From IMG/VR virus record IMGVR_UViG_3300005336_000054, positions 1 to 23,107 of that record: 23,107 nucleotides of DNA; one strand, written 5' to 3'. The DNA is from a virus. Positions 1,433 to 20,940 of this stretch are shown here, piece by piece. Position 1 is the first letter of the stretch, and each line of letters opens with the position of its first letter. The position numbers and the translations under genes were made by a program. The notes under the pieces are model-generated. The model had not been told where the DNA came from. It did no database searches and was given only the letters and a program-made list of their open reading frames with translations.

Positions 1433-2691
1433 AATTCAGCGTCAGTAAACTTACAGAATTTCCCGTCGAACTTCAGTTTTACGTTTCCAATTTCTCCATC
1501 TCGTTGCTTGGCGATTATCAACGTAGCGTCCTCGCCGCCGTCTTTGCGCGGGCGGTGCAGGAGTGCCACCGTGTCGGCGTCCCGCTCAATCTGGCCACTG
1601 TCCGCTAAGTCGGTGAGCCTCGGCATTCGCTCCTTGTCTTTTTCGCTTTCTCTGTTCAGTTGGGCAATCGTCAAGAAGGCTGCTTGGGTTTCCACGGCCA
1701 ACGCTTTTAAGACTCCGCTTACCTCTCCGACTTCGTATGTTCGCTTTTCGTGTTTCGTGCTTGGTTTTATTTTTTGCAGGTAATCAATCACCACAAGTTT
1801 TATTCCGTGCTTTCGGCAAAGTCGGCGCACAATCGAAGCGAGTCTATAAGAATCAAGACTAGCAATGCCTTCAACCACATAAAGCGGGCATGTCTTCATG
1901 CTGGCGTTGAAGTGGGTGAACAATTTGAACTGCTCTGGCTGGAACAGTCCGCTTCTCAAAACACCCATTGGCACACGGCAATGCGACGACAACATTCTCC
2001 GACACAACGCAACCGCACTCATTTCTAGAGTCACCACGATTGTTGGGATTTGATCCACTAAACAAACCTTCTCGACAATGTTCATTGCGATTGCACTCTT
2101 TCCGAGAGTCGGGCGAGCCGCAATTACGGTTTGTTCCCCAAGCTGCAACCCATCCGTTAGTCTGTCGAAATACTTGAACCCGGTTTCCAGGCCACTCTTT
2201 TTCCCGTTCAGATTACAACGCTGTTCAAGGTGAACCAGCAATGACTCCGCGCAGCGTTCCCCGTCATAAAGGTTTTGCGGTGCTTCATCTGATTCGGCCA
2301 GCGTGTTTTCAAGTTCGGCAATCACCTCGTCAATGTTCCCGTTCGCCACCATCGCCTTGTCCACGAACCTCAGCGCGGCTGCTATCACCGCCCGTTTTCG
2401 CCTGTGTTCAATCAGAATCGTTTTCCAGTAATCAAACGTGCTGCTAGCCGGGGACGCTGCTAGACATTGATTACACAGATCAATCGACGTGTGGCAGGTC
2501 TGAACAACGGACTGCACCGTGATAATTTTTCTCTCTGCGGCCATTACTCGAAGCGATTGAGCAAGTTCTCCCAGTTCCACCATGTAAAACCAGGACGGGT
2601 CCAGTTCTTCGGCGTATTCTTGATTGTCCAGGGCACAGCCAATTACGGCTCTTTCAGCATTTTCGTCATGTGGCGGGAGTTGGTCGGTCAT
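1429..2691 (-). CDS. dnaB: DnaB-type replicative DNA helicase
   Basis: This is a phage homologue of the hexameric helicase that unwinds DNA at the replication fork. The N-terminal domain opens with the DnaB-typical PPHDENAERAVIGCAL. The RecA-like domain begins near residue 165 (SGLETGF). It has a Walker A (ARPTLGKSA), a Walker B (LVVIDYLQ) about 105 residues later, and the late motif DLADSGQIERDADTV expected in DnaB. I place the start at the ATG at 2691, giving 420 aa, because it overlaps the upstream TGA as ATGA. A GTG at 2706 would add five residues but has no separate ribosome-binding site. The gene is coupled to the replication protein upstream. No helicase loader of AAA+ type is visible in the window. 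Confidence 0.93.
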   Translation of the reverse strand: MTDQLPPHDENAERAVIGCALDNQEYAEELDPSWFYMVELGELAQSLRVMAAERKIITVQSVVQTCHTSIDLCNQCLAASPASSTFDYWKTILIEHRRKRAVIAAALRFVDKAMVANGNIDEVIAELENTLAESDEAPQNLYDGERCAESLLVHLEQRCNLNGKKSGLETGFKYFDRLTDGLQLGEQTVIAARPTLGKSAIAMNIVEKVCLVDQIPTIVVTLEMSAVALCRRMLSSHCRVPMGVLRSGLFQPEQFKLFTHFNASMKTCPLYVVEGIASLDSYRLASIVRRLCRKHGIKLVVIDYLQKIKPSTKHEKRTYEVGEVSGVLKALAVETQAAFLTIAQLNRESEKDKERMPRLTDLADSGQIERDADTVALLHRPRKDGGEDATLIIAKQRDGEIGNVKLKFDGKFCKFTDAEL

Positions 2692-3407
2692 AAAGCGTTC
2701 ATCCACTCCTTTTCGTGTCCGACAGGGTAAAACCCGTCAATCCTGCCGTCTTTGTCCGGGACGCCTGGAGCTTTTGCCTTTTTAACGGTGCGCTCGTTTT
2801 CCGACCAAGTTTTCAGTTTTACCCGCCATTTCACCAACCGCCCGTGCTGGTTGATCCACGTTTGGTTGCCTTCGTGGTGCTCGAAAAACTTCTGCGCCAC
2901 ATGTTCGGGAATGCCACGGAGTGCGGCTTCTTCCTGAATTTCTTCTATGGTCGGAATGTTTGCTTCAGGTGTGTCCTGTTCTTTAATATGCTTCTGCTTC
3001 TGCATTGGCTTACAAAAGTTTACTTCTGCTAACGCCTGTTTACGCTGTTTACGGTAATCCCGCATGTAATTTCGCATGTAAACTTTACGCTCGTTTTCGT
3101 CTCTAATGTCCCTGTAATCAAGGTAATTGATGATTTTCCAACCCCAGTCTCGCTTCGGATCAATGCGTTGGATTCTTCGACCGTCATGTTTACGCGTTCT
3201 ACTTCTTTTGTCGGGTTGCTCAAGCTGTCTCAGCATTTCGGTAACTTTGTCGATTGGAATACGGGTTCTGCCAGCGATGGCTTCCTGGGTCATGTCAACC
3301 ACTCCGTCGCTCTCGGCTAGAACGAGTAGGTCCATAAAAAAGTGTCTTAGGGCGTAGTCGTTTGCGATGCTGCTATCAAATATCTGGGAGAAAACTTTGG
3401 CGTACAC
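2688..3407 (-). CDS. Winged-helix replication initiation / helicase-loading protein candidate
   Basis: This 239-residue basic protein precedes and is coupled to the DnaB-like helicase by an ATGA overlap. Residues about 10-75 look like a winged helix-turn-helix (a helical DYALRHFFMDLLVLAESDG, then TQEAIAGRTRIPIDKVTEML). A highly basic stretch (MRNYMRDYRKQRK) follows. The C-terminal part (FFEHHEGNQTWINQHGRLVKW) resembles the end of phage DnaD/O-like primosome proteins that recruit helicase. The start codon is GTG with no strong ribosome-binding site. The repeat-rich non-coding region directly upstream is a natural binding target. The family assignment is by pattern and gene context, not by a specific signature. 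Confidence 0.7.
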   Translation of the reverse strand: MYAKVFSQIFDSSIANDYALRHFFMDLLVLAESDGVVDMTQEAIAGRTRIPIDKVTEMLRQLEQPDKRSRTRKHDGRRIQRIDPKRDWGWKIINYLDYRDIRDENERKVYMRNYMRDYRKQRKQALAEVNFCKPMQKQKHIKEQDTPEANIPTIEEIQEEAALRGIPEHVAQKFFEHHEGNQTWINQHGRLVKWRVKLKTWSENERTVKKAKAPGVPDKDGRIDGFYPVGHEKEWMNAL

Positions 3408-3429
3408 GCTGAAAAATGGTTTGTGAAAC

Positions 3430-3532
3430 TTTTGTCGTGCCGTGGGAGGTTGTGACGCCAGACAGTGGATCGTTGAGGAACCGCTGATCCAACGGCACGA
3501 CGAAAATTTCCAATTTAGTCTGCGTCACAACC
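3430..3532. repeat. Interleaved inverted repeats upstream of the replication operon
   Basis: GTCGTGCCGT at 3434-3443 is matched by ACGGCACGAC at 3492-3501. GGTTGTGACGC at 3448-3458 is matched by GCGTCACAACC at 3522-3532. A third pair, TGGATC (3466-3471) and GATCCA (3486-3491), is nested inside the first. The first two pairs interleave, so they cannot all form simple hairpins together. They fit paired protein-binding sites, or a pseudoknot if transcribed. Confidence 0.75.
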
Positions 3533-3842
3533 GAAGATTCCCAAACTCCGCACCTCTACGCAAGAACTATTTTGGAAAAGTTATTAACAGGTTGTTCACA
3601 ATTTCGCCTGGATCGGATAAAGCTGTTTCTCGTGGAGAATCCAAATTTCCTTCATGGGATACACCTGCCATAGGTGAACCCAAGGTGATCGCTCATGAAT
3701 CCTGCGGAGGGAGGCGATTGAGAGTTTTAACATGTTCAACTGTTCGCTGAATTGAGCCAGAGCCTAGGCGGGATCACTGCACACTTAGGTTTATACCCGC
3801 CTTCTAGTGCCCTCTTTGGTAGTGCAGGACACAGGGCACGAC
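3434..3842. repeat. Iteron-like 8-mer GGCACGAC, three copies
   Basis: GGCACGAC occurs at 3494-3501 and 3835-3842 on the plus strand and at 3434-3441 on the minus strand. In each copy it is followed by a purine-rich run (AAAA, GAAA or AAGG). I noticed no copy elsewhere in the window. The clustering next to a replication gene fits initiator or repressor binding sites, but three copies is a small number. Confidence 0.5.
3581..3600 (+). promoter_or_regulatory. Two tandem DnaA-box-like 9-mers
   Basis: TTATTAACA (3581-3589) and TTGTTCACA (3592-3600) each differ from the consensus TTATNCACA at one position, and they are separated by two bases. The surrounding bases are A/T-rich. Two near-matches side by side in the region thought to be the origin suggest host DnaA involvement. 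Single-mismatch boxes are common by chance, so support is moderate. Confidence 0.35.
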
Positions 3843-3860
3843 AAGGATTAGCTCAATTCA
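3748..3860. ncRNA. Candidate structured RNA or cruciform with three-way junction
   Basis: A perfect 10-bp closing stem pairs TGAATTGAGC (3748-3757) with GCTCAATTCA (3851-3860). Inside it are two 7-bp stems: AGGCGGG (3766-3772) with CCCGCCT (3796-3802), and GTGCCCT (3807-3813) with AGGGCAC (3833-3839). The two loops carry complementary hexamers, CTGCAC (3777-3782) and GTGCAG (3822-3827), which could form a kissing interaction. An 8-bp direct repeat AACTGTTC (3738-3745 and 3864-3871) brackets the element. The strand of transcription is unknown. A miniature mobile element with terminal inverted repeats is an alternative. Confidence 0.5.
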
Positions 3861-3876
3861 AAGAACTGTTCAAAAA

Positions 3877-3929
3877 TGGCCGCTGGCGTGAAACGCGTCT
3901 CAGACAAAACGCAAAAACACCAGCGGCCA
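3877..3929. repeat. Inverted repeat, 10-bp stem
   Basis: TGGCCGCTGG at 3877-3886 pairs with CCAGCGGCCA at 3920-3929 across a loop of 33 nt. It lies between the putative structured RNA and the end of the large virion gene. No T-run follows on either strand, so it is not a standard intrinsic terminator. It may be another arm of the origin or RNA region. Confidence 0.6.
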
Positions 3930-3960
3930 CCAACCGCACACTGCGACAACGAACACGGGC

Positions 3961-3990
3961 AGATTAAGGCCCGGGACTGAGGCGTGTCAA
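3961..3990 (-). promoter_or_regulatory. Weak candidate leftward promoter
   Basis: On the minus strand a perfect TTGACA (complement of 3985-3990) is followed after 18 nt by TAATCT (3961-3966), a poor -10 match. If real, it would drive a transcript through the structured region into the replication operon, giving a long leader. The weak -10 keeps confidence low. Confidence 0.2.
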
Positions 3991-3996
3991 TGGGAT

Positions 3997-6900
3997 TTAT
4001 TTAACATGCTCAAAAGCATTCAGGATTTGCTGTCTCGTTTTGAGGGCGTGTTCGTAAAGTTCCTTGTTGTAACCTGAGAGCGATTTGGCGAATTGTTCGT
4101 CCTGCGCTTTGCTCCCGGTGAATGGGTGATTGACAGATTCCTTGAATCCTTTGGCGATTTTATCTGCGGTCATAGTCTTTTTCAGTTCTAGATATTCGCC
4201 TTTCGCCCTGTCCAGATCACCGTCCTCTAAGGCGTATCGCAACTGCTGATATTTGCTGATCGGATAACTGCCCTTGTCTTTAGGAAGTTTCTGTTTGTCC
4301 TTCCACTCACCGGCGAGTTTGTACGTCTCGCTGATTGGACTGTAGCGGGAGATTCTTAATCCGAGAGAACCGGCCAACTGTTGAATCGGCGTGGTTGGGT
4401 TGTTCCTGCTGCTCTCGGTAAGTTCGCGCAATCCTGGCATTGATCTGAGCGTGATCGGAATGTAACCGGCCAGCAGTTCCGTGAACGTCTCCAACGGCGT
4501 AACTTTTTCGCCCCGGTAATTGAGTTCAGTCAACGCTTGTATTCCGCCTTTAACGATCAAAGGATTAACGCGGCCGTAAATGAACTGGCGCGTGTCCTTC
4601 AGCAAACTGTAAATGTCTTCCGGCACGCTCCGCATGGCGTATCTTCGGCCTTTGTAAACGAGTTCAAACGGGTGTTTCGGGTCATACGGCACACCAAGCA
4701 TGTTGGACAGGATAAACGCCGTGCCAGCCTGGGCTGCTGCCAGAATCGCCACGGCTTTCAATTGTTCGTGACCGACTTTTGAAGTGAGACCTTTCACCGC
4801 CTGACCTGCAAATCGTGTTCTGGCCTCAAGAAAATCCGGTGCAAGTGCGCCTAATTGAATCAGGTGTTGAATCGTAGGATTGCGGTCAAGCAAAGCGTAA
4901 TTTAGGTGGCCATAAGCAGCATTGGCCTGTTCTGCTGACGTGATCTTTACGTCTGCGAGTGTCATTTCGCCAGAAGCGAGTTCGTCAGCATACAGCTTTG
5001 TGTTGCGCTTTAACATGGCCTCGTAGGTCTTGAATTTGAGTCCTGGAATGTATTGGTGAAACAGGTAATCCTGATACCCGTCAATCACGTCAGCCAACGC
5101 TTCCCCGGCCTTCGGAATCTTCCTGATCCCACGCGACAGCAAAGAAGTTTTGGCACCAACCCCTTCCAGATAAACCCGTGAACTTGCCCTGTCCGGCAGC
5201 AACATTAGACCGTGATTGGCGGCGTCGAATTGAGCCGGATTACGCAGGTCAATCTTGGGTATTCCAAAGAACGGATTGACCATGTGGCCGATTCCGTGAG
5301 TGCCTTCCTGAACCTGGTGGAATGGCGCAAGAAAACCGAACATCTCACGTTTCATGGCCGCCTGACCAACGTCAATACCACGAACAATTGCGCGTGGAAT
5401 CTGAGCCATGCCACCAACCGGATCGTGATACCACTGGCGCAATGCCGATTGTCCAAGCATAGCGTTTACCCGACGATATGCGTCCGGGTGTAAGGCGAGG
5501 TCGGCTTTAACAAATACCGGGTTGCCATTCGTATCTTTGCTTTGCCAAATCCAGTCATGCAACGCCGGTTGATTCTCCATTGTCTTGTAATCTGCTGTGT
5601 CCTCACCCCGGAGCGCACGCGGTTGAACCAACACGGCTTTACCTTCGTCGCCTTCGACAACCTTGACGTGACCTCTTTGCGCCACAAGCGGTCTGCCGTC
5701 GGCTGCCGTCTCATTGGCCAGGTCACGGACAAATTGTCTATCCGCAATCACCTTGTTCATTTCGTGGATATACGCTGGCAGAAGTTTCCCGATTGCGAGT
5801 GTCTTTGGTTTGAATCCGGCTTGATCGCCTTCAAAGAACGTGGCAAATGTTCTGGCTTTGGAGAATCGAAAGCGTTGCTGCAACATGCCTGTGCCGAATC
5901 CCGTCCCCGGCCTTTTCACGTACCAAACGTGAGGAACGTAGTTTTCGCGGTGCGAACCGAGCACGTCGAATGTATTCCCGCGAGTTTCCAAGGTTGAGAA
6001 TGCCGCAATTGCTTTGTTGGCCACGGCGACTTCCTTGGGCGTGAGGGATTGCGCGTCACGAGCCACGTCCCTCATCCACTTCTGTTTGGCGTTAGTTTCC
6101 CACTGTTTGAGAACAGCCACGTCTCCACCGGCTTCCCTCCAAATACTGATTGCATTCTGTCTGCGTTCGGTTGGAACGTCGCGCTTGATTTCTTTTTGTG
6201 CTCGTCGCGCTTCGTCCATTGATTTCTGGAGCTTGCCACTGTGCTGTGCTGTCACCTTGTCGAGTGGGGACATTTTGCGATTGGCAAATTTGGGGATTGG
6301 GATACCAGCACCCAACTCCATTCCTGTTTCAGTGAATGGTTTTTCCATTGTTGCGCTAACCCAGTCGTCTATGGCCAATTGTTGCTTTGCTTCTAATGCC
6401 TCTTTTTCAGCCTTTGCCTTTTCTTGATTGGCTTTAAGCTTGGCGGCTCGTTCAACGTCAATTCCTTTTTCTCCAGCGAGAGCAAAATCTTCGGTTTGAG
6501 TGCTGGAAATCAAGTCGCCTTGTTTCTCGCCGGGAAGCAGTTTCGGTTTGGTGACGGCCTCTCCAAAATCGTTTTCAACATGCTCTCTAAGTTTTTCCAA
6601 TGCCGCCGCACGTCCAGTAGGAGTGTCAATCGAATCAGGGTCAATTCCCGCTTCGATGGCGGCATTACGCCTGGCAATCTTCAATTCCTTACTTTTTAGA
6701 ATTCGTGCTTGAATACTGGCTGTTCCTTGTTGACCTCCACCGCCTGTTTCGGCGTAGAGCGATTCTGGATTTCTCGCCCAACCGCGTTCCGCCGCATGTT
6801 CCATTACCATCGCGTCAAATTCCTGTGAGGCTTTTTGTGGGCTGATCGACTTGCTTGGTTTTGTAACTACTTCAGATACCGCTTGGCCTTCCGTATTGAC

Positions 6901-7758: not shown

Positions 7759-8715
7759 TCAACGGAGTTTTACTTTGCCAACGCCTTCGAGGTAAATAAC
7801 GTCGCCAGCTTTCGCACCAGCAGTTCTGGCTGCTTCTTCAGATTGATACTTGGCGGTTTCCTGTCCAGTCTCAGCCGCTGCCTTTCCACTCGGCACGGTT
7901 CGTTTGATCGTAATTTCTCCGTGACCTTTCACGGCTTTGACCTCCGGTGTTGCGCCAATTGAAGTTCCGAAATATCCAGGTTTTGCCGGAGCAGCTTCGA
8001 CGGCCTCGACCGCTGGAATCTTTTCCGTTTCAGTCTGTAACCCCTGAGCCGCTGCTGAAGGATTCTCAAACACCATTTTGCCAGTGGCTGGGTTGAACAC
8101 CTTTCCGCCCGGCGGCACGTTCAGAATCTTGTTCTCGGCTTTGGCTTTTTCTTCAGCGAGTTTCTTGGCTTCATTCTCTGCCTTTACACGTTCATTGATA
8201 ATCCCCAACGCCTTGAACTGATCGCCATTAGGAACTTTCGCCGGGTCTTGTTCCATTTCCAATACGGCCGCCTGATACGTTGGCGGGACAGCAGCCAAAT
8301 CTTTCCAGAACGTGTTGGCCAGCGATTGTTTCACGCGACCTTCGTATGTCTTGGTTGCGGCTTCGCTTGCCGCCAATTGCACGCGGGTCATGTTGGAGAA
8401 CACGCTGGATAGATTCTTGACTAACGGCGCCGTGAGTGGAGACAGGGCAGCCCCCGGATTCTTGACCAGGAATCTGGCCATGCCTTCCTCGTCCTCAACA
8501 CCAAATGCCCGCATTTGATCGACCAACTCCTTGCTCGCCTCCATTTGCGCCCGCATTTGGTTCTCACGAAATTGCAACTGCTCGATCCTAGACTGCCGCT
8601 GCAACTCGACACTCTCCCGCGCCGTGCGTGCATTGTAACCGCTAATGGCCGCCGCCGCCGCGCTGCTGTTGCCGCGCTCAACCCAAGGTGGGGGCATGTT
8701 CTCGAAAAGACTCAT
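7759..8715 (-). CDS. Internal virion-type protein with coiled coil, 318 aa
   Basis: This 318-residue protein lies between the 256-residue virion gene and the 1252-residue protein. The first 80 residues are Ala-rich and then form a charged coiled coil (RQSRIEQLQFRENQMRAQME). A second helical Lys/Glu/Ala segment occurs near 180-200. The last 30 residues (GAKAGDVIYLEGVGKVKLR) look like a small beta-rich cap. This architecture is usual for internal core or ejection proteins of podoviruses. Its ATG overlaps the stop of the HNH-AP2 gene as ATGA and no independent ribosome-binding site is visible, so its translation now seems to depend on the inserted endonuclease gene. Confidence 0.6.
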   Translation of the reverse strand: MSLFENMPPPWVERGNSSAAAAAISGYNARTARESVELQRQSRIEQLQFRENQMRAQMEASKELVDQMRAFGVEDEEGMARFLVKNPGAALSPLTAPLVKNLSSVFSNMTRVQLAASEAATKTYEGRVKQSLANTFWKDLAAVPPTYQAAVLEMEQDPAKVPNGDQFKALGIINERVKAENEAKKLAEEKAKAENKILNVPPGGKVFNPATGKMVFENPSAAAQGLQTETEKIPAVEAVEAAPAKPGYFGTSIGATPEVKAVKGHGEITIKRTVPSGKAAAETGQETAKYQSEEAARTAGAKAGDVIYLEGVGKVKLR

Positions 8716-9194
8716 ATTCTATTTTGATAGGCGAACACGCCGTGATATTTTACGGCAGCTACATTGTATGCACATGCGGCATCCCTTACATTATCGAAGC
8801 ACCCTAATGGGAAAGACTTTCCAGACACTTTGATCCTGACTCTAAACTTTCTGTTTTTAGGAATCCATGTAACTCCCTTAAATCCAGTTGGAGAATCAGA
8901 CCTTGGGCCTTGGTTCATTTGGTTTTGAGAACGCGTACAATGTCTCAAATTACTTCTTTGATTATTCAAACCATTCCCATCTTTGTGGTCAATAATGCAA
9001 CCATGAACAGTTCCTAGGATCACCTGGTGCATTTTGACATGCTTTGTCTTTGCCCCTTTTTTCCCGTAAGCAATAGCATAGCACCCGTAACCAGGAACTG
9101 GTTGATTTGCGAACCATGAAAACTGTGAAATCTTTTCAAAGTCAGTGTCATCACAAAGCGCTATTTGTCCGGTAGGCAAAGAGATTGTTTTCAT
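8712..9194 (-). CDS. HNH homing endonuclease with C-terminal AP2 DNA-binding domain
   Basis: This is a free-standing homing endonuclease of 160 residues. The HNH nuclease core spans about residues 55-93 (MHQVIL, then IIDHKDGNGLNNQRSNLRH), with H56, H70 and N78 or N82 as likely catalytic or metal-binding positions. An AP2-type DNA-binding domain covers about 103-152 (TGFKGVTWIPKNRKFRVRI, then DAACAYNVAAVKYHG). It is set between two virion genes: its ATG lies one base after the upstream TAA with a good GGAG site, and its TGA overlaps the downstream ATG. Such genes cut intron-less or insertion-less alleles and spread by repair. The closely matched junctions suggest recent or well-tolerated insertion. 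Confidence 0.93.
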   Translation of the reverse strand: MKTISLPTGQIALCDDTDFEKISQFSWFANQPVPGYGCYAIAYGKKGAKTKHVKMHQVILGTVHGCIIDHKDGNGLNNQRSNLRHCTRSQNQMNQGPRSDSPTGFKGVTWIPKNRKFRVRIKVSGKSFPLGCFDNVRDAACAYNVAAVKYHGVFAYQNRI

Positions 9195-16162: not shown

Positions 16163-17334
16163 TAGTCAAAGCGTTCTCCGAACATGAACACATTTGCGGT
16201 TCGCGCTGCGCCCTCTGCCGTGCCCACCCGAAATCTGATAGTCGTTGCCGTGAAAGTGTCCGTGCCAGCGACAGCTTGCAGCACCAACTCCATGTACTTC
16301 GTCGTCCCGGTCAATGTGCCGGATAACGCCTGATCTGCCGCAATTGCAATCCCAGTCCCCCCCGCGCCAGTAAACACCCCTAACGTCGCCGTGGTCACGG
16401 CCGCAGACGGATTCTCGACCAGAACCTTTGTTATCCGATAGCGACTGGCCTCAACCACAACGTCGTTGTCGCTGAGAGCCGAGTTCAGATCAACCGCAGC
16501 AACCGCCGCCAAAACACCGTAACGCGGCAGCACTTTCCCAAGTGTTGCCCGCATGTCCAAAGCAAGTACATCGTCGAGTAGCGTTCTGGCCAACGGGGTG
16601 AGCGTGGTCAACGCCCAAGTCTGTGCTGCTGTGGCATAGAGCATTCTATCTGCAATCGAAGCCAGTGCCGCAATCGAATCAAGATCAGCGTCCCATGCCT
16701 GAACATTCGCGCCAATCGCCACGCCAAGATTCGTTCTGGCTGTGGCGGCACTGGCCAAACCGCTGAGATTACCAGCCTTCGTCAGATAGTTGGCCGCCGT
16801 CTCAACCGCCATTGTGCCGAGGCCAAGATTGGTTCTGGACGCTGCAATATCGTCCACGTCAGAGAGATTGTTGGCGGACAACATATCGCCCGTTCCAGAA
16901 GCACCGTCTGTTCCCTTTATCCCGCCTGGGCTTATCTGTGAACCGCTTGGGATATTCGTAGTTGGAGCTGCATTCCCGGTGTACCCGAGATTGGTCAGAA
17001 TCACCGATAGCGCAGTCGGTTTTGATACAACATCGTAATAACCTCCAACTTCAACAAACACTTTCTGGCCAACGACAAACCAGCCAGAGTCCAGAACCGC
17101 AACCGTGACATTGGCCGACACTGCTGGCTGAACAAATAAGGCTGTGGTAAACGTGGTGGCATTCTCGCCGTCGTCACCGACCAATGACGCAAGCCATTCT
17201 GCTTCAGTGCCGACAAAGCCATTCTCGACTGCAACTTCGTAGGCTGAGTCGCCTTGTGGGCCGGGAATATTTTCAACAATGGGGTCTGGACATTCAGAAC
17301 AGCAGTCCGAAATATTTGTAAGTGTTGTGCTCAT
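16162..17334 (-). CDS. Tail fibre protein, 390 aa
   Basis: A short collagen-like PGPQG motif near residue 24 is followed by the fibre motif VENGFVGTEAEWLASLVGDDG. A middle region follows with two copies of the fibre-shaft motif [AS]-x-RTNLG (ASRTNLGLGT and ATARTNLGVAI). The last 130 residues are a beta-rich tip (YRITKVLVENP, FTATTIRFRVG). I choose the ATG at 17334, giving 390 aa, because it overlaps the GIY-YIG gene's TGA as ATGA. A TTG at 17346 would add four residues without support. It is the first structural gene of the leftward operon and is likely involved in host recognition. Confidence 0.75.
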   Translation of the reverse strand: MSTTLTNISDCCSECPDPIVENIPGPQGDSAYEVAVENGFVGTEAEWLASLVGDDGENATTFTTALFVQPAVSANVTVAVLDSGWFVVGQKVFVEVGGYYDVVSKPTALSVILTNLGYTGNAAPTTNIPSGSQISPGGIKGTDGASGTGDMLSANNLSDVDDIAASRTNLGLGTMAVETAANYLTKAGNLSGLASAATARTNLGVAIGANVQAWDADLDSIAALASIADRMLYATAAQTWALTTLTPLARTLLDDVLALDMRATLGKVLPRYGVLAAVAAVDLNSALSDNDVVVEASRYRITKVLVENPSAAVTTATLGVFTGAGGTGIAIAADQALSGTLTGTTKYMELVLQAVAGTDTFTATTIRFRVGTAEGAARTANVFMFGERFD

Positions 17335-18089
17335 ACGTGGACCCAATGTTTTCTGCCAGCCTTTCCGCCACGACGCATAGCTCTGCCAATTAAATGGCGC
17401 AGCATTCCAAAATGATTTTCTGCGGCAACGTGCGATGGGAATATTTGCCCGGTTTCAACACATTTAACTCGCTTGCATTTATTAGCATGGCGAGGCGAGT
17501 TAATCATTGCCAACCTGATTTTCTCGACAAGTTCTGGAGGTCTTGTTTTTCCAGTGTTGTGCTTATGGCAAGCAGAAATTCCTTTCAACCAAAAACGGTT
17601 TCCGTTTTTCTTGGCTCGTTCTAGTGCCTGAGACATTTTTAGTCTGGTTTCAGGAGTATGTTTCCTGCCAGTCCAGATTCGCCTTATCGTTTCAATCGAA
17701 AAAGCACTTCTTTTTCTGCCAATCCCGGCTTGCCTGATCTTTTCTCTTGCTTCATCAGTGTGCCTGTAGCCCGTCATGTTTGGGCCGCCGGTGCCGCCAT
17801 CAGTTCTGTTTACCAGCCAACCGGAAGGTTTGAATAACTGAATCCAATACTTTTCTCGCCCTTGCCAATTATCGTTTGTGCACACTTCAAGTGGCCATAT
17901 TAAAGGCTTTGAGCCGCCTCTCACAACTTTGTCCACCCAATCGTTTTTGTGAGTCTTTCGTCGATGTGTTTGTGTAATATGTTGGCTTAATCTTTGGCGC
18001 AACCGAATCTTTGTTTTCCCAATGTAACGAATCTTTGTTTTCTCGGCGGGATCAGACATCGCGTAGATGGTGCATTGGTCAGTGGCCAT
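17331..18089 (-). CDS. GIY-YIG homing endonuclease with NUMOD repeats
   Basis: This 252-residue free-standing endonuclease has its GIY-YIG core at about residues 7-95. It carries CTIYAM, then IRYIGKT, R31 or R33 and H37 after it, a catalytic Glu in GREKYWI (E79), and LVNRTDGG. Three NUMOD3-like motifs of the GRKHTPETRLKMSQA type follow at roughly 105-122, 138-157 and 178-195, and the C-terminus (KCVETGQIFPSHVAAENHF) is NUMOD1-like. These parts bind the target DNA. The gene is first in the leftward operon, opposite the terL intein, and its TGA overlaps the fibre start. Its closeness to terL suggests its cleavage site lies near the divergent junction. Confidence 0.95.
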   Translation of the reverse strand: MATDQCTIYAMSDPAEKTKIRYIGKTKIRLRQRLSQHITQTHRRKTHKNDWVDKVVRGGSKPLIWPLEVCTNDNWQGREKYWIQLFKPSGWLVNRTDGGTGGPNMTGYRHTDEAREKIRQAGIGRKRSAFSIETIRRIWTGRKHTPETRLKMSQALERAKKNGNRFWLKGISACHKHNTGKTRPPELVEKIRLAMINSPRHANKCKRVKCVETGQIFPSHVAAENHFGMLRHLIGRAMRRGGKAGRKHWVHV

Positions 18090-18159: not shown

Positions 18160-20940
18160 ATGCCAAAAGAAGCCTATGGGCGCCAGTGGGAAGATCATTT
18201 GAATGATTTCGAGATCGACGCCATTGTCTTTAATAAGATGTCGCCTGAAAAGGTGGACAAGGCACAAGTCTTCAAGCGCATTGCCAGACGATTCTGGCCC
18301 ACCAACGCCAAGCCTCCCAAAATGCCGTTTATCTGGCACCCGTGGGCGGACGACATGCTCCATGAGGCGTGCAAGACAAACTACCTCGCATTAAATGGGG
18401 GGGCTTGTGTTGCTGGAAACACGCGAATATTAAATCCGATAACGGGAGAAGAACCCACTATTGAGGAACTGTTTGAATCTCGGATTGCGCCGATGGTGAT
18501 GACCTTGCACGGCCCTGCTCAGGCAAGCGTTCCGTTCATTAAGGGGACGGATGATTTATACGAAGTCGTGATGGAGAATGGCAAACGGTTTACCTCGACC
18601 GGAGAACATCGCGTTCTAACGCCAACCACTTTTTCTGCCGTTTCAACTCTGCTGCCCGGCTCACTCCTTTTCTTATACGAGCCAGTCCGTCCTCAGTCCA
18701 CTTCGGACATTTCCCTTTCAGTTCATGCGCGAGATGTTCTGAGTTCTCAGAGAACAGTTGGAGATTTTCAGGAAGGTTGTCAGTTTTCACGCGATTACGA
18801 TGGTGGACGACTTCTTCCGGGCGAAGATAACGGCCAATCATCTTTTCCATCACAAGCCGATGCTCAAGAATGTAAGGCGTGTTCTTGCGACGGTTGGGGT
18901 GGTTTGGACAGTACACGATTTTATAGCCGTCTTTGTCAATATGCACGCCGCCATTCCACTGACCTGACTTCTCTCCAGGAATATTCACGGGGAAATTCCT
19001 TGTTTCGCCTTCACGCCGGAGAAAATATTTCACGCGCACCCCTGTTGTTCCAACAGCGCGGGCGATTTCCTCTAGGTACGCACCCTCAGAGTTCATTTTC
19101 AAAACTAAATCTCTGTTCCTCATGCACGCGCCATTTCTCGGAACGACTATCCCAATCTTTCGGCCAACCACACCACGATCTTTCAAGCGGGACTGAACCA
19201 GTCTATGCGACAACCCGATTTCCCCAGCTATTTCCTTGGGGCGAAGCCCGGACTTCCAGAGTCGCACCATTTCGTCAACCATCTGCAACGTCTTTTTTCT
19301 CAGAGCCATGTTCAGACTTTACGGTATCGCAACAGAAGGTGCAAGGAATAAGTCGTATCAAACGAGGAAAGTTTTACGACCTGTCTGTTCCGGGGATTGA
19401 GCACTACTTTGCTGAAGGAGCAATCCACCATAATTCAAGCGGCAAAACTGAATTTGAAGCGGTGTGGGCGATTATCAATTGGGCAGTTGACCCGTCCAAT
19501 ACTTGTGTGCTCGTAACGTCAACTGGCATTAAGGAAGCACGCCAGCGTATTTGGGGATCAATTGTAAAATATTTCAACGCCGTTCCTGGACTGCCCGGCA
19601 AACTGCTGGATTCAATCGCCATGATCCGCACCGATGACGGCACGGGCAGACGTTACGATTCAAAGTGCGGTATTCACGTTGTCGCCGGTGATAAGTCCAA
19701 GGAAAAGGAAAACATTCAGAAGCTAATCGGTATTCACGTTCCCCGCGTATTCCTGATTGCGGACGAGTTGCCGGAACTGTCCCCGGCGCTGTACGAAGCC
19801 GCCATGACCAACCTTGCCACGGCACCAAAGTTTCAAATGATTGGGAGCGGAAACTTCAAATCAATTTACGATTCGTTCGGGACATTCTGCGAGCCAAAGG
19901 AAGGTTGGTTGAGCGTGGACGCAGACACAGAACGGTGGGAAACAAAAATGGGCGTGTGCCTCCACTTCAATGGTGAGAAAAGTCCCAACGTATTACTTGG
20001 TGAAGATAAATGGCCAATTTACGGTTGCAAAAATCTCGAACAACACCGGAAGCAACCCGGCCAGCACACAGCCGGTTACTGGCGCATGTGTATTTCCATG
20101 CCGAGCCAGGACGCGGAGGAAAACACGATTTATCCGGCTTCGGCGTTTATCAAAGGGCACGCACACGATAAGCCGACTTGGATTGAGACTCCGATTCCGG
20201 TTGCGTCGTTAGACCCAAGTTTTGTTTCCGGCGGCGACAGGGCTGTTGCCTGCTTTGGATTGTACGGCAAAGAGAAAAACGGCAAGATGGTGTTGGGATT
20301 TACAAAGGTGACGGAAATTAAAGAAGACCGACGAAATGATCGAGAAAGCAAAAGCGTTCAAATCGCAAAAAGATACAGGGCAATGTGTGAAGAAGAACAC
20401 GTTGAACCTCAGAATGCGGCTTACGATGGTTCCGGTGGCGGCATTGTTTTTGGTGCTCTCCTTTCCGAACTTTGGTCTCCCAAACTTCTCTCAGTTCAAT
20501 TTGGCGGCAGTGCGTCTGACTTGCTTGCGAACATGGGAGACAAAAGAACCGGGAAACAATCCTACGTCAATCGCGTTACCGAACTTTGGTTCACAGGTTT
20601 GGAATTTGTTCAATCGTCGCAAATTCGAGGGCTCCCGGGAAGCACGGCGAAAGAATTGCAAGCGCGACGGTACGAAACTTCTAAGCAGGGCGAATTTTTG
20701 AAAACCAAGATTGAAACGAAAGCCGAAATGAAAGTTCGCACCAACGGAAAAAGTCCAGACGAGGGCGATAGCGCAATGATATTGGTCGAGCTTTGCAGGA
20801 GAAGGTTTGGATTTACACCGGGAGGAATTGCTGGCGCCAGAACAAAGGTAAAGGACGTTTGGAAACAGAAGGTCTTGAGAACAAATGGCATTTTTGACAG
20901 CGACTCGCTTTATCAGCCAGAAGAAATGGTTGCGGTTTAA
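18160..20940 (+). CDS. terL: Terminase large subunit interrupted by an intein
   Basis: This is a 926-residue precursor that gives a terminase of 583 residues once the 343-residue intein is removed. TerL is the packaging motor ATPase and DNA-cutting nuclease. The intein splits the ATPase P-loop: residues before it read LALNGGA and those after read SSGKT, giving GGASSGKT after splicing. The Walker B is FLIADE at 531-536. The RNase H-like nuclease has D685 (ASLDPSF), D756 (AYDGSG) and D867 or D870 (SPDEGDSA). The C-terminal extein is complete. A purine-rich AAGGA lies just before the ATG with a short spacer. It heads a rightward operon with the portal. Without splicing the P-loop would be destroyed. 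Confidence 0.95.
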   Translation: MPKEAYGRQWEDHLNDFEIDAIVFNKMSPEKVDKAQVFKRIARRFWPTNAKPPKMPFIWHPWADDMLHEACKTNYLALNGGACVAGNTRILNPITGEEPTIEELFESRIAPMVMTLHGPAQASVPFIKGTDDLYEVVMENGKRFTSTGEHRVLTPTTFSAVSTLLPGSLLFLYEPVRPQSTSDISLSVHARDVLSSQRTVGDFQEGCQFSRDYDGGRLLPGEDNGQSSFPSQADAQECKACSCDGWGGLDSTRFYSRLCQYARRHSTDLTSLQEYSRGNSLFRLHAGENISRAPLLFQQRGRFPLGTHPQSSFSKLNLCSSCTRHFSERLSQSFGQPHHDLSSGTEPVYATTRFPQLFPWGEARTSRVAPFRQPSATSFFSEPCSDFTVSQQKVQGISRIKRGKFYDLSVPGIEHYFAEGAIHHNSSGKTEFEAVWAIINWAVDPSNTCVLVTSTGIKEARQRIWGSIVKYFNAVPGLPGKLLDSIAMIRTDDGTGRRYDSKCGIHVVAGDKSKEKENIQKLIGIHVPRVFLIADELPELSPALYEAAMTNLATAPKFQMIGSGNFKSIYDSFGTFCEPKEGWLSVDADTERWETKMGVCLHFNGEKSPNVLLGEDKWPIYGCKNLEQHRKQPGQHTAGYWRMCISMPSQDAEENTIYPASAFIKGHAHDKPTWIETPIPVASLDPSFVSGGDRAVACFGLYGKEKNGKMVLGFTKVTEIKEDRRNDRESKSVQIAKRYRAMCEEEHVEPQNAAYDGSGGGIVFGALLSELWSPKLLSVQFGGSASDLLANMGDKRTGKQSYVNRVTELWFTGLEFVQSSQIRGLPGSTAKELQARRYETSKQGEFLKTKIETKAEMKVRTNGKSPDEGDSAMILVELCRRRFGFTPGGIAGARTKVKDVWKQKVLRTNGIFDSDSLYQPEEMVAV
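18590..19309 (-). CDS. HNH homing endonuclease encoded antisense inside the intein
   Basis: This 239-residue protein is on the strand opposite terL and lies wholly within the intein. The N-terminus contains two helix-turn-helix-like segments (KSGLRPKEIAGEIGLS at 19-34 and EGAYLEEIARAVGTTG at 75-90). The HNH domain follows at about 115-187: GQWNGGVHIDKDGYKIVY, then EHRLVMEKMIGRYLRPEEVV and HHRNRVKTDNLPENLQLF. H150, H169 or H170, and N178 or N182 are likely active-site residues. A weak promoter-like pair (TTGCAC, 17 nt, TAAAGT at 19316-19344) would give a nearly leaderless message. Its last 20 or so codons overlap intein blocks B and N4. It probably cuts intein-free terL alleles. Confidence 0.92.
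   Translation of the reverse strand: MALRKKTLQMVDEMVRLWKSGLRPKEIAGEIGLSHRLVQSRLKDRGVVGRKIGIVVPRNGACMRNRDLVLKMNSEGAYLEEIARAVGTTGVRVKYFLRREGETRNFPVNIPGEKSGQWNGGVHIDKDGYKIVYCPNHPNRRKNTPYILEHRLVMEKMIGRYLRPEEVVHHRNRVKTDNLPENLQLFSENSEHLAHELKGKCPKWTEDGLARIRKGVSRAAELKRQKKWLALERDVLRSR
19316..19344 (-). promoter_or_regulatory. Weak promoter-like pair upstream of the antisense HNH gene
   Basis: TTGCAC (complement of 19339-19344) and TAAAGT (complement of 19316-19321) are separated by 17 nt, each matching the sigma70 consensus at four of six positions. The predicted start would fall at the ATG at 19309. It lies inside intein coding sequence, so its bases are constrained by protein, and the match could be chance. 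Confidence 0.2.

Follow-up and report, generated by a model that had tools for sequence, protein, structure and literature searches.

In standard accounts, the endonuclease of a mobile intein is a domain of the intein protein. Can the nuclease instead be a gene of its own, encoded on the strand opposite the intein that carries it? The question is raised by IMG/VR record IMGVR_UViG_3300005336_000054, a whole viral contig of 23,107 bases that we refer to as “the window”. A putative terminase large subunit (TerL) gene in the window is interrupted by an intein, and an intact HNH endonuclease gene lies within that intein in antisense orientation. Here, we describe the two genes, their recurrence in other genomes and the selection that acts on them, and we argue that the element is very probably a mobile intein carrying its homing endonuclease as a separate antisense gene.

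Two intact genes on opposite strands

The host gene, intein included, occupies positions 18160–20940 on the plus strand as a single open frame of 926 codons. Computed boundaries place the intein at 18406–19434 (+), with 343 amino acids from Cys1 to Asn343 and Ser as the +1 residue. It interrupts the P-loop as GGA/C...HHN/SSGKT (slashes mark the splice junctions): the N-extein (18160–18405, +) ends at the P-loop glycines (...LALNGGA), and the C-extein (19435–20937, +) begins with SSGKT. Once the intein is removed from the window sequence, the P-loop GGA/SSGKT of the host ATPase is rebuilt.

NCBIfam intein_Nterm matches the intein with an E value of 5e-7 and 30.6 bits (cut-off, 24.5), and intein_Cterm falls slightly under its cut-off (13.6 versus 15.6 bits). 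In an alignment of 48 inteins, C1, the block-B His (H68), D325, V328 and the terminal Asn343 are invariant and H342 is nearly so; the +1 residue, Ser in the window, is Ser, Thr or Cys in relatives. AlphaFold2, run on an intein alignment from which two rows from database records were left out, predicts a Hint fold with a disordered insert of 207 residues. The N-terminal splicing domain (blocks A and B, residues 1–93; 18406–18684, +) and the C-terminal splicing domain (blocks F and G, residues 304–343, ending in HYFAEGAIHHN; 19315–19434, +) are modelled with high confidence, with predicted local distance difference test (pLDDT) scores of mostly 95–98 and about 96–98, respectively. Confidence is very low in the stretch between them (pLDDT about 37–55). 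Residues 97–303 (18694–19314, +) make up this “passenger”, which is open, unconstrained and predicted to be disordered, and which lies opposite most of the HNH gene. The top Foldseek matches of the intein model are the Mtu RecA intein (E 1.3e-7) and the NpuDnaB intein. The element thus has the features of a class 1 intein, i.e., N-terminal Cys, block-B His, C-terminal His-Asn, +1 Ser and Hint fold, and we infer that the precursor would splice, restoring the P-loop.

The HNH gene is located at 18590–19309 on the minus strand, wholly within the intein, and encodes 239 amino acids. Its open reading frame (ORF) matches HNH_3 above the cut-off (E 1.3e-7), and its top PHROG match is HNH (E 1.5e-26). 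The catalytic motif, E166-V-V-H169-H170 ... N182 ... H192 (18734–18814, −), is conserved across 48 relatives, with E166, H170, N182 and H192 invariant and H169 nearly so. The AlphaFold2 model (mean pLDDT 91) consists of an HNH domain and two helix-turn-helix (HTH) DNA-binding modules at residues about 2–44 and 66–99 (19013–19306, −), with helices at 2–19, 24–31 and 35–44 in module one and at 66–74, 79–86 and 90–99 in module two. The modules match Cbp1-like DNA-binding repeats by both profile and fold, and the model has a weak fold match to I-HmuI (probability 0.97, E 0.17). A catalytic HNH motif together with DNA-binding modules is expected of a homing endonuclease of the HNH family, and the HNH protein probably spreads the intein by cutting DNA.

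An earlier reading of the window, made from its letters only (the sequence-only reading), had described an intein that splits TerL at the P-loop, remains one continuous frame and contains an HNH gene on the opposite strand. Its coordinates are correct to the base, and its account of the frame and of the HNH gene holds.

Recurrence across phages and bacteria

How common is this arrangement? We gathered loci by scanning IMG/VR with the HNH protein and then with an HNH alignment, with HNH similarity as the sole criterion; intein N and C blocks were detected with profiles, and loci were clustered at 75% nucleotide identity. Among the 80 best HNH-chosen loci, 77 have an antisense HNH gene flanked by the two intein blocks, which share a single open frame. 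The remaining three are L003, which is cut by the contig end and has an open frame up to the edge; L085 (17–773), which lies at a contig end and in which the frame of the intein N-domain meets a stop before reaching the antisense HNH gene, making it a broken or possibly split version of the intein; and L087, a free-standing HNH gene. In total, 89 loci in 51 clusters have an antisense HNH gene between in-frame intein blocks. All 51 clusters share a single phase, in which intein codon position 1 lies opposite HNH codon position 1. The standard arrangement, with an in-frame endonuclease domain, is rejected by the opposite-strand position of the HNH gene in the window and in all 89 clustered loci.

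Practically all of the insertions split a P-loop, G....G/[STC]GK[ST]. The hosts include many terminases, two clamp loaders, an SbcC-like protein and a helicase. The layout is also found in nine records of cultured phages, three of which were examined directly; they include Pectobacterium phage Koroua and its relatives, Dickeya phage Setonix and Pseudoalteromonas phage PHS3. In bacteria, it occurs with identical phase in the isolate Polaromonas sp. CG9_12, within a large protein encoded on the chromosome, and in several contigs of metagenome-assembled genomes. Because the layout recurs in many metagenomes, in cultured-phage records and in an isolate chromosome, a chimeric assembly is excluded. 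The antisense-HNH intein is a recurrent class, with well over fifty distinct phage insertions.

A tree of HNH proteins does not resolve the antisense HNHs into a single clade and therefore speaks neither for nor against a common origin. One further locus, L142, encodes an HNH protein of a different family (PF01844, E 1.3e-6; 3380–3967, −) antisense in a homologous intein. Its phase differs, with intein codon position 1 opposite HNH position 3, and it is apparently an independent origin of the antisense architecture.

Nuclease genes also overlap host genes in same-strand arrangements. In the huge phage LR756508.1 (L029), an HNH_3 gene (2434–3321, +) lies inside a DNA methylase intein whose frame spans 2061–4415, on the same strand and in a different frame. 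In Mycobacterium phages Bipolar (L163, 1839–2390) and Mantra (L164, 1683–2375), an HNH ORF occupies another same-strand frame of an uninterrupted methyltransferase. No intein blocks were seen by eye in these two methyltransferases, for which no intein search was made; about 200 amino acids of translated passenger seem to be part of the host protein.

Selection on both strands

Is the second frame real, or simply open by chance? For an expected number of stops, each HNH region was recoded synonymously using the codon usage of its own contig. In the window alone, there are no stops in the intein frame over the HNH region, whereas 5.6 are predicted (p about 0.0005); over the 51 independent loci, there are none versus 257 expected. 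A chance open frame is therefore excluded. Codon bias and GC content are rejected as causes by the other two antisense phases, which have 449 and 264 stops over the same 51 loci, above expectation, and by free-standing HNH relatives, of which those checked mostly have 1 to 11 stops in the corresponding phase. A split intein, or fractured gene, is likewise rejected, since the sense frame is continuous in 51/51 clusters and has no stops over the HNH region; L085 may be an exception.

The ratio of nonsynonymous to synonymous substitution rates (dN/dS) was calculated for 17 close pairs of relatives; some of these pairs are not independent of one another, and for overlapping genes dN/dS values are approximations. 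Over the HNH core, dN/dS is 0.16 in the HNH frame and 1.91 in the intein frame (the passenger), and substitutions are concentrated at HNH third positions (0.172 versus 0.057 and 0.047). The pattern is reversed where the C-terminal tail of the HNH protein lies opposite block B of the intein N-domain (18590–18684, both strands): dN/dS is 0.26 in the intein frame and 1.33 in the HNH frame, and it is the intein, not the HNH tail, that is conserved in relatives. In the intein-only blocks, dN/dS is 0.05 (N) and 0.15 (C). Selection acts on both strands, and the conserved strand switches from zone to zone. The flip in dN/dS indicates that each gene preserves its own working part and merely avoids stops across that of the other.

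These results also settle two doubts that accompanied the sequence-only reading, namely that the frame might be broken in related genomes and that the HNH gene might be a decayed fragment. The frame is unbroken, in one phase and without stops, in all 51 non-redundant loci, with L085 as the sole exception. Decay of the HNH gene is rejected by the conserved motif residues, the low dN/dS of its core and the confidence of its model. A third doubt, that of a chimeric assembly, is answered by the recurrence described above.

Occupied, empty and nuclease-free alleles

A mobile intein is expected to be present in some alleles and absent from others. The terL of phage PHS3 corresponds to AL terL with an insertion of exactly 900 nt (300 codons) at GGAG/SGKS, and the flanking sequences are about 95% identical. 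PHS3 and AL thus provide an in-frame insertion that is absent from a homologue, as is the case for inteins.

Loci chosen by HNH similarity necessarily contain an HNH gene. Two further samples, of 51 and 80 loci, were chosen by the C-terminal splicing block; some of their contigs are shared with the HNH-based sample. Antisense HNH genes are present in 44/51 and 56/80 of these loci (100 in all). The others comprise 25 mini-inteins of ~134–151 amino acids, five loci cut by contig ends, and L142 with its antisense PF01844 HNH gene. None of the 131 loci sampled by splicing domain has an in-frame nuclease. The mini-inteins (L136, L151, L275–L276 and most of L284–L305) sit at the same P-loop site and have no passenger, and L159, one of the 44, retains a mere remnant of the antisense HNH gene. 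Mini-inteins and L159 fit deletion stages of the usual gain/loss homing cycle.

Expression signals of the HNH gene

Does the antisense HNH gene have expression signals of its own? As a promoter score, we used the best sigma-70-like match upstream of the HNH start, out of 12. On the HNH strand, the score averages 8.64, as compared with 7.31 when the intein frame is recoded synonymously (p 3e-8); dinucleotide shuffles and recoding controls score 7.2–7.3. No promoter-like enrichment is seen on the opposite strand upstream of HNH genes. Exact TTGACA hexamers occur 16 times upstream of HNH genes versus 2.2 expected, and because that expectation comes from synonymous recoding, the conserved V-S-I of block F is rejected as the source of the excess. 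Individual loci can be striking: in L073, AGGAGG and then ATG come after a perfect TTGACA-18-TATAAT, and PHS3 has TTGACA-17-GATAAT on the HNH strand (L026, 2932–2960). There is also a Shine-Dalgarno signal at HNH starts (p 0.009 in an unbiased test). The over-representation of promoter-like sequence upstream of HNH genes, like the recurrence of the class, goes beyond the lone locus of the sequence-only reading. In relatives that have such signals, the HNH gene is probably expressed from them. In Koroua, terL is located among structural genes, and the HNH gene is on the opposite strand, which holds most replication genes; this layout is compatible with a nuclease expressed early and a terL expressed late, though it does not demonstrate such timing.

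A proposed mechanism and its alternatives

We propose that the sense strand would give a single continuous TerL-intein-TerL precursor, in which the Hint domain folds and the translated complement of the HNH gene protrudes as a disordered loop at the usual position of the endonuclease. The intein would then excise itself, restoring the P-loop. On the antisense strand lies a complete HNH gene, accompanied in many relatives by its own promoter-like and ribosome-binding sequence. The HNH protein, with its two predicted HTH modules and HNH domain, would cleave copies of terL that lack the intein at their P-loop codons, and repair off the intein-bearing copy would insert the whole intein, antisense gene included. 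Across the HNH core, the sense frame is selected just for the avoidance of stops, and the HNH frame is selected just in its core. The case for a mobile intein with a separate antisense nuclease rests on computed evidence: the frames on the two strands are intact and both selected, the layout recurs, active sites are conserved, an occupied allele has an empty counterpart, promoter-like sequence is enriched, and nuclease-free mini-inteins exist.

Several observations weigh against it. A clear Shine-Dalgarno sequence is lacking at the HNH start of the window, the HNH strand there has a single promoter-like site (9/12) that is no better than chance, and the Pfam Intein_splicing match to the intein, despite an E value of 2.4e-6, is under the gathering score. 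A near-identical empty allele is available in only one host family. In that family, the PHS3/AL flanks have 8 mismatches per 600 nt at the site, which is within the lowest 7% of genome windows but not exceptional; there is no exceptional co-conversion tract around the insertion, and flank identity is therefore not counted as evidence of co-conversion. Lastly, the stop in L085 is what would be expected if the sense frame were open by accident or codon bias, with the intein dead or once split and the HNH gene a free-standing gene within TerL. GC-rich genes can indeed have long antisense frames, as in L087. However, accident does not account for the complete absence of stops in the 51 loci next to undepleted phases, for invariant splicing residues and strong purifying selection on the intein blocks, or for mini-inteins that keep the frame with no passenger to preserve, and we regard this explanation as highly unlikely.

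The predominance of terminases among the hosts suggests another possibility, since a packaging role has been attributed to phage HNH proteins (Kala et al., as cited in PMC10448857): the antisense HNH could belong to the known class of packaging-associated phage HNH nucleases, which act together with terminase, and could sit by chance in a terL intein without being a homing nuclease. This is improbable given that the same arrangement is found in clamp loaders, an SbcC-like protein, helicases and the large Polaromonas protein, that the predicted pairing of two HTH modules with an HNH domain is the layout of a homing nuclease, and that otherwise similar terminases with a mini-intein or an empty allele lack the HNH gene. 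There is similarly little to favor a passenger peptide that is functional itself, e.g., in the regulation of splicing, with the HNH gene secondary. The passenger does stay open over about 200 amino acids, but its high intein-frame dN/dS, its predicted disorder and its complete absence from 25 mini-intein relatives make such a function very doubtful.

For the group as a whole, we consider it likely that these elements form a widespread class of mobile inteins, undescribed in the literature searched, that carry an independent antisense nuclease gene with its own promoter, and that the architecture has arisen at least twice.

Comparison with known systems

The sequence-only reading knew of no described contiguous intein with an antisense nuclease, and our search of the open-access full-text literature (subscription papers were outside its scope) also found no report of one. 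I-HmuI is an HNH homing endonuclease with HTH modules, sense-encoded in a group I intron. The window protein resembles I-HmuI and other phage HNH homing endonucleases in combining an HNH domain with HTH modules; here, the gene is antisense and in an intein. In the fractured genes reportedly described by Dassa et al. in 2009, the host gene and its intein are broken in two and joined by trans-splicing, with a separate nuclease gene between the intein N and C parts. The separate gene in that position is a shared feature, but in the antisense-HNH inteins the sense frame is unbroken, with the nuclease gene lying across it.

The TerL inteins of mycobacteriophages contain in-frame LAGLIDADG nucleases, and splicing and cleavage have been shown for several mycobacteriophage inteins (PMC5050341). 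They share with the window intein the Hint domain, Cys1, the block-B His, the His-Asn end, insertion in the TerL ATPase domain, and placement of the endonuclease between blocks B and F. Whereas their nuclease is part of the intein protein, here it is an HNH enzyme that the opposite strand encodes as an independent protein from a start of its own, and relatives have promoter-like sequence for it. Nuclear group I introns of Didymium and Diderma similarly have a homing endonuclease gene on the strand opposite a self-splicing element, probably with its own promoter (PMC9548176). Those introns are in eukaryotic ribosomal DNA and encode His-Cys box nucleases. A group I intron needs no reading frame, so its antisense gene is unconstrained; in the window, by contrast, both strands have to remain translatable over about 720 nt.

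The host gene and its surroundings

The host genes of PHS3 and Koroua are clear TerLs. For the window, a P-loop, a position upstream of a connector gene and weak similarity tentatively suggest a TerL-like protein. The closest relative of the host gene is that of L039, at 42% identity, which itself matches a TerL PHROG weakly (E 8e-4). The window C-extein alone matches no Pfam or PHROG family, a search for its relatives found none, and a comparison of the full-length ORF with phage records also found none; consequently, there is no empty allele for the window gene itself.

Other homing-type genes and intein-like sequences occur in the window and elsewhere. Directly upstream of the window terL, on the opposite strand, is a GIY-YIG/NUMOD3 homing endonuclease gene (17331–18089, −), and an HNH_3/AP2 gene is located elsewhere in the window (8712–9194, −). 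In L015–L017, an adjoining ORF (339–851, −) has a second intein-like N/C block pair of 171 amino acids with a weak C-block. In Koroua (PQ008972.1, 28430–31540, −), a DNA helicase gene and one more ORF share sequence with an annotated LAGLIDADG endonuclease; the arrangement may be another intein or a split helicase.

Implications

The antisense-HNH intein explains two mis-annotations. In PHS3 (KX912252.1, 17336–18511), terL is annotated as truncated, with only the portion after the antisense HNH gene kept; in Koroua (PQ008972.1), terL is annotated as “hypothetical protein” (CDS0009), and the antisense HNH gene has no annotation. More broadly, with the nuclease as a separate gene on the other strand, the intein would become a means of concealing an antisense gene from the protein that hosts it. 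If our reading is true, one stretch of DNA holds two protein genes, and the timing of nuclease expression is uncoupled from that of the host gene. Nature provides in these inteins a clear example of dual-strand coding over a long stretch, in which the strand under selection changes from zone to zone, and models of overlapping-gene evolution can be tested on them directly. Cultured systems are on offer, i.e., PHS3 with the intein-free AL, and Koroua with its relatives; they suit the study of homing, of splicing with a long disordered insert, and of antisense transcription inside a late phage gene.

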